Positions 37,946 through 42,012 of a stretch of 64,000 nt of DNA are shown here, piece by piece (the first letter of the stretch is position 1; every line of letters begins with the position of its first letter). Position numbers and translations under genes: made by a program. The notes below the pieces were generated by a model. That model saw only the letters and a list, made by a program, of their open reading frames with translations. It ran no database searches and was not told the origin of the DNA. Source of the DNA: Kozakia baliensis (lineage in GTDB: Bacteria > Pseudomonadota > Alphaproteobacteria > Acetobacterales > Acetobacteraceae); contig NZ_CP014674.1 of NCBI RefSeq assembly GCF_001787335.1, positions 752,501 through 816,500 of the forward strand. Direction: 5' to 3'.

Positions 37946-37991
37946 GTGAACGGACTGTTTGAACGATGCGTTACCGGACGAACGAAGCCTC

Positions 37992-38717
37992 ATGAGACGA
38001 CAAGATTCTTTGATCGGTCGCAACGAGACTTCGGCCGACGACAAAATTCACCAGCCGCGCTCGGCGCTTGACGCCGATGCGGTACGCGCTGCCTATCGTC
38101 GTTGGGCGCGGATTTACGATACCGTTTTCGGCGGAATCTCGGCGTTCGGTCGCCGTCGCGCCGTTTGTGCGGTGAATGCTCTGCCTGGCGAACGCGTTCT
38201 GGAAGTGGGCGTGGGCACAGGCTTGGCACTTCCGTTCTACGACAAAAGCAAGCACATCACGGGGATCGATCTCTCCGAGGCGATGCTGGAGCGGGCGCGT
38301 CAACGCGTCATTCAGCAGCAGTTGAGCAATGTGGACGATCTTCTGGAGATGGATGCCGAAGCGACCACCTTCGAGGATGGCTCGTTCGATATCGCCGTTG
38401 CGATGTTTGTGGCGTCTGTCGTGCCGCATCCCTGCCGCCTGCTGGCCGAACTCAAGCGAGTCGTCAAACCGGGCGGTCATATTCTGTTCGTTAATCACTT
38501 TCTCGCGACTGGCGGCATGCGCCTTGCCGTTGAGCGCGGTATGGCGCGGGCTTCACGCTCGCTCGGTTGGCATCCAGACTTCGCAATGGAGTCTTTATTA
38601 ACGCCGAACGACTTGAAACGCGCCACAATACAACCAGTTCCTCCTGCAGGCCTCTTCACACTCGTGACATTGCCGCACGAGGGGGGTAGAGAAGAACCCA
38701 CGGCCCTGGTCGCCTGA
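37992..38717 (+). CDS. PmtA-type phospholipid N-methyltransferase
   Basis: 241 aa from ATG 37992; a TTG at 37959 in frame would add 11 residues and neither has a clear ribosome binding site. The SAM-binding motif is VLEVGVGTGLALPFY, followed by HITGIDLSEAMLERA and the ADMxxLxF-like acidic strand, with RVVKPGGHILFVNHF after it. This pattern fits alphaproteobacterial PmtA, which methylates phosphatidylethanolamine to phosphatidylcholine; such a gene is known in acetic acid bacteria. The leader carries a hairpin. A different methyl acceptor remains possible. Confidence 0.8.
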   Translation: MRRQDSLIGRNETSADDKIHQPRSALDADAVRAAYRRWARIYDTVFGGISAFGRRRAVCAVNALPGERVLEVGVGTGLALPFYDKSKHITGIDLSEAMLERARQRVIQQQLSNVDDLLEMDAEATTFEDGSFDIAVAMFVASVVPHPCRLLAELKRVVKPGGHILFVNHFLATGGMRLAVERGMARASRSLGWHPDFAMESLLTPNDLKRATIQPVPPAGLFTLVTLPHEGGREEPTALVA

Positions 38718-38816
38718 CACGATTGCGTGCCCGACACTCGAACACCAGATGAGCCGATGGAAAGATCGCTCCTCCGGCTTTGCCGGAAAGGGGTGTGAAA
38801 ACAAAGGGAACTGGCG

Positions 38817-40037
38817 TTGTTACAGGCGAGAGAACCGAACGAGTTTGCACGGGCGTCATCGCATTCATCTTCACCGCATTCCGACGGACCACTTTTCCTA
38901 AGGTTGGCTCTGCTGGCTGGCTTCGCTGGCGGATTGATGGCGTTTCTTACGCCCCATTCCGCAGCGGGATGGTCGGAAACGGGCCTTCGCCACGGCCTCC
39001 TTCTCGATTTTTTCGTCATCGCGCCAGCTTATCTCGGTGGCCTCGGGCGGTTGCTGCTTCCTGCTCAGCTAAAGCGCTCCTCCATGGCGCTTCCCGGCTT
39101 CGATCATGCGGGCATCGCACTGCTCGCGACCGGTCTTGCGCTTCTGCTTTCCAGCGAGTGGCTCGGCGCAACATGCCTGTTGCTCGCGGTGTTGGCTTGG
39201 GCAGGCGGAATGTTCGCTGTTTCTATCGGCACGATTGCTTCGGTTCTTGAAGATCGTCCCGATCGTTTTCGCGCACTCTCGCCTTTCGTTTGGTCTCAAT
39301 TCCTGACGGCGTCGGCATTTATCGTCGTTCTTCCGGTGTTGGCAGCGGGCGTCGTTCGGGTCGGCTTGGGTTCCATGCCTGCCGAGGCTGCGCTCGACCG
39401 TTTGTTGCATGTGTTCCGCGTGCCGGAACTAGCCCTTTCCATTCTTCCAGCGCTCGGCATCGCCGCAGATATGATTTTCCGTCGCGATCGTAACGTGCCA
39501 GCCCTGCTAACCGGAATTATGGCGCTGATGTCCCTCGGGACCGCCATTGTCTGGGCGCATGGTGTCATCAATGGCGTGCGTGATTTCGTACCGCTTGAGA
39601 TTTTCGGTGTCGCCGTGCCGACATTGGTTTTGATCGCGGCTTTCTGCGTCAGCCTATGGAGTGTACGAAGCTCAGCAAGTCTGCCGCTTTTCTGGTCCTT
39701 CGGTGCATTGCTTCTATTCTCGGCGGGATGGTTGCTGCGTATTTTGCCGCAAGGTCAGACGGATTTGCATTCTGCGGCACTGTTCGGCGCGATCTTCGCT
39801 TTATTCGGCGGCTGTTATCGCTGGTTGCAGGAAGCGCAAAACAATGCGGTGCCACGCTGGGTCGGCATGGTCCATCTGCAAATCACGGCGCTTGGCGTGG
39901 TGTGTTTTTTCCTGCCGATGGCCGGCTTGCATCATTTTGGTGAAGCCGTCATGGGTGTGTCGCTGCTTTGCGCCATTCCGTTGGCCTGGCGCATCACCAT
40001 GGCGCAGCGTGAGCAAAAACTGGCGGTGATGTCATGA
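38817..40037 (+). CDS. Degenerate cytochrome oxidase subunit I-like membrane protein
   Basis: 406 aa, about 12 membrane helices. By eye it follows haem-copper oxidase subunit I: HGLLLDFFVIAPAYLGGLG matches helix II, FVWSQ...LPVLAAG matches the middle, and GAIFALFGG matches helix X. Haem a ligands correspond to H59 and H318, both kept. The binuclear-centre residues are mostly lost: H240 becomes V202, Y244 A206, H291 G249 and H376 D316; only H248 remains. TTG 38817 has AAAGGGA 7 nt upstream. ctaB overlaps by ATGA. It cannot be a normal oxidase; an assembly or haem-binding role is inference. Confidence 0.7.
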   Translation: MLQAREPNEFARASSHSSSPHSDGPLFLRLALLAGFAGGLMAFLTPHSAAGWSETGLRHGLLLDFFVIAPAYLGGLGRLLLPAQLKRSSMALPGFDHAGIALLATGLALLLSSEWLGATCLLLAVLAWAGGMFAVSIGTIASVLEDRPDRFRALSPFVWSQFLTASAFIVVLPVLAAGVVRVGLGSMPAEAALDRLLHVFRVPELALSILPALGIAADMIFRRDRNVPALLTGIMALMSLGTAIVWAHGVINGVRDFVPLEIFGVAVPTLVLIAAFCVSLWSVRSSASLPLFWSFGALLLFSAGWLLRILPQGQTDLHSAALFGAIFALFGGCYRWLQEAQNNAVPRWVGMVHLQITALGVVCFFLPMAGLHHFGEAVMGVSLLCAIPLAWRITMAQREQKLAVMS

Positions 40038-40972
40038 GCGCCTCTCTCGAAACCACCACGCCACGCGCCAGTCTTGCCGAAGCCGGTTCTGAACTGCGTG
40101 ACTGGCTGGCGCTGCTGAAGCCACGCGTCATTTCCCTAGTGGTGTTTACCGGCGCTGCCGGAATGGCCGTCGCGCCTAAATGGCCGTCTGTACCGTTGGG
40201 TCTCATCGACATGCTTTGCATCTGCGTGGGGGCAGGGGCGGCAGGCGCGATTAACATGTGGTACGACCGCGATATCGATGCCGTGATGAAACGCACGTCT
40301 GTGCGTCCGATCCCGGATGATCGGATGGATGCCGATAGCGCGCTGATCTACGGCGTCGTGCTTTCCGTGGCGTCGGTGGCGCTGCTTTGGCTCGCCAGCA
40401 ACGCGCGTGCAGCCGGTATTCTGGCGTTTTCCATCTTCTTTTATGCCGTTATCTATACGATGTGGCTTAAGCGCAGCACGCCGCAGAACATCGTAATCGG
40501 CGGCGCGGCGGGTGCATTTCCGCCCATGATCGGATGGGCAGCCGCTACCGGCCATATGGCCGTTCTGCCCGTCGTGATGTTCGCGATCGTGTTTTTATGG
40601 ACGCCGCCGCATTTTTGGTCGCTCTCGCTCTACGCCTGTAAGGATTACACGCGCGCCGGTATCCCGATGCTGCCGGTGGTAAAGGGGGCACGCCATACGC
40701 GCTATCAGATCGTTTTTTATACGATCATTCTGATGGCCGTTTCGCTGGTGCCGAGCTTTCTGCATCTTTGCGGCATGATTTACACGGTAACGGCGACGGC
40801 GCTTGGTGCGGGCTTTATGTATTTCGCCTTACGCGTGCTGATGGATAAGCAAGACGCCAGCGGCGTCAGCCAGACGGCGGATAAGCCTGCGCGTTATGCA
40901 TTCCGCTATTCACTGGCTTATCTGTTCTTCTTGTTTCTTGGCTTGCTGATCGACCGGGTGTTGTTCTCATGA
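40034..40972 (+). CDS. ctaB: Haem O synthase (protohaem IX farnesyltransferase)
   Basis: 312 aa UbiA-superfamily prenyltransferase that adds farnesyl to protohaem IX, giving haem O for bo3-type quinol oxidase. The prenyl-diphosphate motif NMWYDRDIDAVMKRT is followed by RTSVRPIP; the second region includes YTMWLKRSTPQNIVIGG and TPPHFWSLSLYAC. Nine hydrophobic segments are visible. It overlaps the oxidase-like gene (ATGA) and its own stop overlaps a short membrane gene (ATGA), so three genes are translationally coupled. Confidence 0.94.
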   Translation: MSASLETTTPRASLAEAGSELRDWLALLKPRVISLVVFTGAAGMAVAPKWPSVPLGLIDMLCICVGAGAAGAINMWYDRDIDAVMKRTSVRPIPDDRMDADSALIYGVVLSVASVALLWLASNARAAGILAFSIFFYAVIYTMWLKRSTPQNIVIGGAAGAFPPMIGWAAATGHMAVLPVVMFAIVFLWTPPHFWSLSLYACKDYTRAGIPMLPVVKGARHTRYQIVFYTIILMAVSLVPSFLHLCGMIYTVTATALGAGFMYFALRVLMDKQDASGVSQTADKPARYAFRYSLAYLFFLFLGLLIDRVLFS

Positions 40973-41079
40973 TCCAGAATGAAGCTGCCCGCCGCCGCCA
41001 AGGGCGTCTGCGTGGTATTATCGGCGGGCTTTGCCTCGTTGCTGTCGCGATTTTCGCTATCGCATTTCTGCGGATGTGA
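40969..41079 (+). CDS. 36-residue single-span membrane peptide after ctaB
   Basis: The frame starts with ATG 40969 overlapping the ctaB stop (ATGA) and ends at TGA 41077-41079. The N-terminus is basic (NEAARRRQGRLRG), followed by a 20-residue hydrophobic helix (LCLVAVAIFAIAFL) and a short end. In alphaproteobacterial cytochrome oxidase operons a tiny membrane protein (CoxF-like) often lies between ctaB and ctaG; this matches in place and shape. The assignment is by position and topology, as the sequence is too short for certainty. Confidence 0.6.
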   Translation: MIQNEAARRRQGRLRGIIGGLCLVAVAIFAIAFLRM

Positions 41080-41094
41080 TGGTGGGCGGGGAAA

Positions 41095-42012
41095 TTACCC
41101 CGCCTGTTGGATGGCCGAAAGAACCCAGTTGCCGCGGCCATCGGCACGCACGAACGTCCAAAGCTCCGTCACGGTCTGGCGTTCGGTGCTGCTGCCGTCG
41201 ATCACGTTGCCCATCGCGTCAGTGGTGACATCAATCAGCGAGTAACGCATCGCCACTGTGGCGTAGGTCAGATTTCCTTCGCGCCATGCTTCCGACAAGT
41301 CGCCCTGAATGAACTGCACATCCGACGTGATATTACGCGCGCTGCGGCTGGCGTAATCCGAAAGCTGCTCGTTGAAATAAGACACCATCTCCGGTGTCGC
41401 CATTGCCGAGAGCGCGCGCATATTCTGTGCGCTCCAGGCCGCCTGAATATCCAGCAGCAAGCGTTGGAAAGCGCGATAGTCGTCCGGCGTGATGACGACA
41501 TTATTGTTGCCATTGCCGCTGAACGGCGTGCCGCCTGAACGCGACATGACGCTTGGCCCGCGAGATGCGGCTCCACCGAAGCGGCGCAGCAGCCACACGA
41601 TGATGCCCCCGATGATCGCGACTTGGATCAGGAATCCGAACAGCGAGGTGATGCCATCCATTCCTCCAAGGAAGCCATGGCCCGAAAGCATGCCGAACAG
41701 CCCTGCGCCGAGCAGTCCACCAGCAAAGCCGGTCATGAAAGGATGGCGTTGCGGATACGAACCGTAGGGACGCTGCATGCCGCCTGCATAGGGAGCGGTC
41801 TGGCCGTAATTGCTAGGTGCGCGCGGCGCCATGCTGCGATCCATTGGGCGCGCGTAAGAGGGAGCAGTCCGCGTCGGAGGTGGCGCGGCATAGGTATGGC
41901 TGCCGCGACTGCCGACCGAATATCCACCGCCGGGGCGTGCATCGGCTTGCGGCAAGGAAAGGCCTGTCGTCGCAAGAGTCAGCAGAAGGATGGAAAGGGG
42001 ACGCATACGCAT
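41095..42012 (-). CDS. Tim44-like domain protein
   Basis: 305 aa with a signal-like N-terminus (MRMRPLSILLLTLATTGLSL) and a Gly/Pro/Tyr-rich segment. A hydrophobic helix follows at about 130-147 (FLIQVAIIGGIIVWLL), and then a C-terminal Tim44-like domain (DYRAFQRLLLDIQAAWSAQN, then LTYATVAMRYSLIDVT). Bacterial relatives (TimA) are membrane-anchored and may take part in membrane-protein or import-like functions; the role here is unknown. It converges with the ctaB unit, whose last gene ends 15 nt away. Confidence 0.8.
   Translation of the reverse strand: MRMRPLSILLLTLATTGLSLPQADARPGGGYSVGSRGSHTYAAPPPTRTAPSYARPMDRSMAPRAPSNYGQTAPYAGGMQRPYGSYPQRHPFMTGFAGGLLGAGLFGMLSGHGFLGGMDGITSLFGFLIQVAIIGGIIVWLLRRFGGAASRGPSVMSRSGGTPFSGNGNNNVVITPDDYRAFQRLLLDIQAAWSAQNMRALSAMATPEMVSYFNEQLSDYASRSARNITSDVQFIQGDLSEAWREGNLTYATVAMRYSLIDVTTDAMGNVIDGSSTERQTVTELWTFVRADGRGNWVLSAIQQAG

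Follow-up and report, generated by a model that had tools for sequence, protein, structure and literature searches.

An oxidase subunit I descendant in acetic acid bacteria keeps an invariant low-spin haem ligand pair beside haem O synthase

Why would an acetic acid bacterium maintain, directly in front of the gene for its haem O synthase, a relative of cytochrome oxidase subunit I whose oxygen-reducing centre has been taken apart? The question is raised by a locus of Kozakia baliensis (assembly GCF_001787335.1, contig NZ_CP014674.1). The window—the whole stretch of DNA that was analysed—covers contig positions 752,501–816,500 (64,000 nt); all other coordinates are positions within it. On its forward strand, a CtaD-like gene (38817..40037) is joined to ctaB (40034..40972) by an ATGA overlap. 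The sequence-only reading had described both frames and their overlap, and these were found exactly where it had put them. For the interval as a whole (38817–41079), all of its residues and coordinates that were checked stand, while the TTG start of the CtaD-like gene is unproven, leaving the N-terminus uncertain, and a third open reading frame within the interval (40969..41079, 36 aa) had gone unmentioned.

The CtaD-like gene encodes a protein of 406 amino acids with 12 predicted helices. The protein belongs to the COX1 superfamily (Pfam PF00115; 47.7 bits, cut-off 34.8) and falls far short of the CtaD equivalog model (NCBIfam TIGR02891; 47.7 bits versus a cut-off of 670.75). A profile built from 49 homologues finds the solved subunits I of the PDB with E ~1e-76 (hmmsearch), and aligns with a profile of 21 canonical sequences over 407 columns (hhalign, probability 100). 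The AlphaFold2 model of the protein shows 12 long helices (mean pLDDT 93.6), and its best fold matches are again subunits I (Z 35.9 in VIA-align, over 372 aligned residues at rmsd 3.2; E 1.6e-11 in Foldseek). Alignment, profile and fold agree: the 406-residue protein is a descendant of cytochrome c oxidase subunit I (CtaD) with, as had been read from the sequence, a dismantled binuclear centre.

Phylogeny places the CtaD-like family next to, but outside, the canonical CtaD of Acetobacteraceae and other alphaproteobacteria, and a single change of state on the tree suffices for the family; long branches call for caution in both respects. The canonical ligand set is found in Lichenicoccus, Acidocella, Roseomonas and Elioraea. 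Since canonical relatives also carry ctaB at this place, the CtaD-like locus is the inherited ctaD locus; by the same token the adjacency of ctaB is ancestral, and linkage alone does not show joint function. A second, early-branching deranged group with only the low-spin histidines was also seen, consisting of L126 (genome G094) and five loci of genus g80 (L112, L113, L128, L130 and L132). L126, at 526 aa, still scores 231 bits against the canonical profile, and represents either an intermediate stage or a separate loss.

Which parts of the enzyme have been lost, and which retained? The ligand register was set by alignment with 22–23 canonical subunits I; the same register emerges from hhalign of separately built profiles and from hmmsearch against PDB subunits I. 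In the K. baliensis protein, the HPEVY motif is replaced by Val202-Pro203-Glu204-Leu205-Ala206 (39420..39434, + strand), with loss of both the CuB histidine and the tyrosine. The HH CuB pair has become His248-Gly249 (39558..39563, + strand), and the high-spin haem histidine has become Asp316 (39762..39764, + strand; alignment and hhalign). Hence, a single member (H248) remains of the catalytic set of five (three CuB histidines, the cross-linked tyrosine and the high-spin histidine), and the replacements V202, A206, G249 and D316 are those given by the sequence-only reading. The damage extends further: K354 of the K channel is L272, D124 of the D channel is S89, and the RR propionate pair is deleted together with its loop. 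The protein has lost its oxygen-reducing centre, its two proton channels and the loop that contacts the propionates, but not the two ligands of the low-spin haem: His59 (codon CAC, 38991..38993, + strand) and His318 (codon CAT, 39768..39770, + strand) are placed on helices II and X by alignment and hhalign alike, a position on which the earlier reading had staked itself beforehand.

The same pattern extends across the family. Among 90 homologues, the CuB histidine of HPEVY and its tyrosine are never kept (0/90 each), the two positions of the HH pair are kept in 46 and 10, and the high-spin histidine in two; the His59 position is retained in 89 and the His318 position in all 90. A further 14 homologues (L012, and 13 more from reading upstream of ctaB) all keep both histidines, giving a set of 104 acetic-acid-bacterium homologues in which His318 is present in 104/104 and His59, in frame, in 103/104. 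The lone exception, L059 (G350:C21), has a 5' third that runs in a different frame and still encodes an unbroken SHGLLLD motif; if the frameshift is read across, both histidines are present in 104/104. L059 comes from a metagenome-assembled genome (85% complete, 4% contamination), and its frame break is either an assembly error or a recent frameshift. K354 is kept in 0/89 homologues and D124 in 18/89; the CtaD-like proteins generally lack the RR pair together with its loop. Orthologues of the kind that the sequence-only reading had required, with the low-spin pair kept and the rest lost, occur in all sampled acetous genera that keep ctaB: besides Kozakia, the named ones are Acetobacter, Gluconobacter, Komagataeibacter, Gluconacetobacter, Novacetimonas, Asaia, Swaminathania, Bombella, Saccharibacter, Neokomagataea and Commensalibacter.

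This retention is set against very rapid change elsewhere in the protein. The 22 canonical subunits I share 239 invariant columns; just 11 of these are preserved in 95% or more of 89 homologues, both low-spin histidines included. The tree has a length of 40.3 substitutions per column over 48 deranged rows, compared with 3.4 over 20 canonical rows. On the deranged tree, the mean is 13.6 changes per column; D316 changes 17 times and the neighbours of the low-spin histidines 13–19 times each, while just five of the 403 columns never change—and H59 and H318 are two of those five. With both histidines among the few kept columns, and with zero changes on the tree, chance is excluded. By helix, conservation in the family is highest in I, II, V, IX and X, and lowest in III, VI, VIII and XII.

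The frames themselves are intact, with no internal stops in the match among 90 of them. In 21 independent close pairs, median dN/dS is 0.10 (range 0.045–0.47) for the CtaD-like gene and 0.044 for ctaB; the protein is thus constrained, roughly 2–3 times less than its neighbour. (A median of 0.44, obtained from whole-set pairs, was discarded; most such pairs are near synonymous saturation.) Amino acid identity is 26–41% where CtaB keeps 62–89%, a fast evolution that suits an adaptor better than a catalyst. It is also too fast for short exact patterns, which is why a single-protein scan of genome contigs with the CtaD-like protein gave no confirmed relatives, and an alignment, too, held no sufficiently conserved stretch; ctaB as the query led to loci of named organisms. 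The claim that this is an intact frame under selection—with a dN/dS of about 0.1 across orthologues, not near 1—is borne out by the frames, the dN/dS values and the ligand invariance. The 12-helix fold and exactly the low-spin haem histidine pair are under purifying selection, and on these grounds the protein is very likely a selected low-spin haem protein.

The gene's surroundings are compact. ctaB encodes haem O synthase (TIGR01473, 320 bits, cut-off 210.3) and is the only CtaB-like match at E 1e-40 or better in the K. baliensis genome, with no second strong one. It lies directly 3' of the CtaD-like gene in 104/104 homologues. The third open reading frame (40969..41079, + strand) encodes a 36-aa single-helix peptide and shares a second ATGA overlap with ctaB; given the two overlaps, the CtaD-like gene, ctaB and the peptide gene look like one unit. 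A peptide of the same kind stands behind ctaB in most acetous loci, and a longer version in canonical ctaD-ctaB operons. The 36-aa peptide scored above the cut-off of no family and matched no solved structure. Kinship with mitochondrial Coa3 is a lead only (7 of 34 peptides match PF09813 weakly, best E 0.018). A SAM-dependent methyltransferase gene (37959–38717, + strand) ends 100 bases upstream of the CtaD-like gene, and its C-terminal sequence is also found upstream of the L059 homologue; downstream of the peptide gene lies a gene on the opposite strand (41095–42012, − strand). A simple scan of 38600–41200 gave no sigma-70-like promoter. The same region holds 12 terminator-like hairpins versus 4.6 in shuffles, mostly within coding sequence.

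What remains, in the same genomes, of the enzyme to which this subunit once belonged? Neither surf1 nor ctaG (Cox11) was found in any of the 21 carrier genomes sampled, while four genomes with canonical CtaD have surf1 in 4/4 and ctaG in 3/4. ctaA is present in nine of the 21 carriers and absent from 12, so the site of the CtaD-like protein does not need haem A; the K. baliensis genome, too, has no CtaA. Subunits II and III of the old oxidase are gone from the K. baliensis genome: no CuA subunit II was found, cyoA alone turning up in the regions inspected, and the sole COX3 lies within the cyo operon. That operon is cyoABCD, without a recognised cyoE. A strong CyoB-sized oxidase is present in all 21 carriers. 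So the genes that served the old enzyme have been lost, and the CtaD-like protein, CtaB and the peptide retained; the link that had been drawn with the use of quinol oxidases in place of cytochrome c oxidase is supported. At coarse detection limits, five small acetous genomes without ctaB (G028, G139, G089, G093 and G233) have neither a CtaD-like match nor CyoB, which suggests that the CtaD-like protein is kept only together with ctaB, although the joint loss of ctaB and the CtaD-like gene may be a single deletion. Three of the five have only a low-scoring COX1 frame of 785–833 aa, which may be a quinol NO reductase, and two have none.

Taken together, these findings describe what is probably a working haem-binding helper, and not merely a dying gene. 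The CtaD-like gene is the vertically inherited ctaD of a lost cytochrome c oxidase operon. Its product would bind one low-spin haem between helices II and X (haem B or O, because 12 of the 21 carriers are without CtaA) and would be inert towards oxygen. The protein could then act as a docking partner of CtaB that receives freshly synthesised haem O or keeps it stable, and help to pass it on to the apo-CyoB of the bo3 quinol oxidase. An intermediate of oxidase assembly would thereby have been turned into a helper: a subunit I that can take up its low-spin haem but never mature may be a natural acceptor or relay after the loss of CtaA and Surf1. That this bis-His, low-spin-haem-only descendant of subunit I handles haem O with CtaB for the bo3 oxidase is, in our judgement, an evenly balanced proposition. 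In E. coli, CyoE serves the bo3 oxidase with no helper of this kind, which counts against the role. More tentatively, and with somewhat less than an even chance, the stripped subunit I may be a dedicated haem O carrier and assembly partner of CtaB, serving a quinol oxidase with no haem O synthase gene apparent in its operon, that together with CtaB and the peptide forms a frozen oxidase-assembly module.

The same observations can be read in other ways. Membrane bundles with one bis-His low-spin haem are widely used for electron transfer, and electrons enter subunit I at its low-spin site; the protein might be an independent membrane cytochrome b that moves electrons (e.g., to or from quinol, superoxide or a periplasmic partner), its adjacency to ctaB merely inherited. 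Such a cytochrome would have to manage without the old CuA subunit, and with the only COX3 in the cyo operon; moreover, the CtaD-like protein never occurs without ctaB in the genomes sampled. The HxxQxxxxH motif before the helix II histidine, which we take to be the bo3 quinol-site motif, is present in the bacterium's own CyoB and absent from the CtaD-like proteins looked at, and the quinol-oxidising version of the idea lost weight accordingly. We regard an independent redox protein as rather unlikely. Slightly less favoured still is a haem-free scaffold whose sole role is to stabilise CtaB in the membrane. Degli Esposti et al. (2023) have already suggested this in print (PMC10715153), and it fits both the constant pairing with ctaB and a sequence that drifts fast while the fold is kept. 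A scaffold does not explain, however, why two buried ligand histidines remain invariant amid such changeable neighbours, or why the five remaining ligand positions are scrambled in this protein while the low-spin pair is not; its published premise, the loss of all metal ligands, is contradicted. The invariant low-spin site thus makes a haem-free role less likely.

The two remaining explanations fare far worse. Loss of the catalytic residues, a dN/dS above that of ctaB and the frameshift in the 5' part of L059 would all be expected of a decaying relic kept only as the upstream cistron that couples ctaB translation. Yet some 100 frames are intact across very deep divergence with dN/dS of about 0.1, the model of the protein is a confident 12-helix fold and the ligand pair is invariant; and in some lineages a gap of up to ~40 bases to ctaB has removed the overlap coupling, while the frame is kept. 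The dN/dS values, the intact frames and the invariant ligands led us to reject a pure pseudogene, and the relic reading, very improbable in our estimate, is close to refuted. An oxidase or NO reductase with an active site rebuilt from other residues would account for the subunit I fold, but its catalytic site would be conserved, and there are no shared replacements: active-site position 276 is occupied by G, L, V, I, E, Y, T and others, and position 411 by D, A, G and others. With K354 lost throughout, D124 in most and the RR pair missing, we consider a rebuilt enzyme scarcely tenable. The haem-binding helper of CtaB is, in our view, the best explanation.

How much of this has been seen before? 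A deranged COX1-like (CtaD) gene of Acetobacter was reportedly noted by Matsutani et al. in 2014 (PMID 24862920). Citing Matsutani 2014 for it, Degli Esposti et al. describe a deranged COX1-like gene beside ctaB, lacking every metal cofactor-binding residue, whose product probably has a structural role in stabilising CtaB (PMC10715153). A genome paper has ctaD and ctaB adjoining by locus tag (PMC5158111). The K. baliensis gene, a subunit I homologue with an incomplete active site directly before ctaB, belongs to this deranged family. Neither the gene nor its damage is new to science, both having been published; where the sequence-only reading had offered a novelty, the literature already contained the deranged gene next to ctaB as well as the suggestion that it helps CtaB. 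For the low-spin site, the published statement of total metal-ligand loss is contradicted. That the low-spin site stays invariant in an oxidase dismantled in other respects is real and apparently unreported: a search of the pseudoenzyme literature, which missed most subscription papers, found no description of a subunit I homologue with only the low-spin haem.

Besides correcting the record on total metal-ligand loss, the family offers a clear example of an enzyme stripped of its catalytic centre in which selection still acts strongly on one cofactor site. The invariant site also makes function directly testable. A subunit I with only its low-spin site, found only where CtaB is kept, is a simple genetic handle on haem O transfer from synthase to apo-oxidase, and tractable carriers are available in Gluconobacter, Acetobacter and Komagataeibacter, the genera of vinegar, cellulose and vitamin C processes.

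Among known systems, the proposed functional analogy is with Surf1 and CtaA, in that the CtaD-like protein would take up haem that CtaB makes or passes on, and deliver it to subunit I: CtaB is reported to work in membrane complexes with its haem acceptor CtaA (PMC9145763), and haem insertion is thought to happen at an early subunit I intermediate (PMC9145763, PMC5249081). No homology to either is claimed, and Surf1 is absent from all 21 carriers. With the bo3 subunit I, CyoB, encoded in the same genome, the protein shares superfamily and fold; CyoB keeps the active-site and quinol-site motifs, and the CtaD-like protein has neither. The likeness to A-type subunit I (CtaD/CoxA, TIGR02891) comprises whole-length homology, 12 helices, the low-spin histidine pair and the place before ctaB, but the CuB ligands, tyrosine, high-spin histidine, K and D channels and RR pair of the A-type enzyme are lost and loops are shortened. 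The deranged CtaD of Acetobacter (PMC10715153) belongs to the same family, occupies the same place before ctaB and has, by sequence, likewise lost oxidase activity. It differs in its published description, where all metal ligands are lost; here, both low-spin histidines are invariant in 104 homologues.
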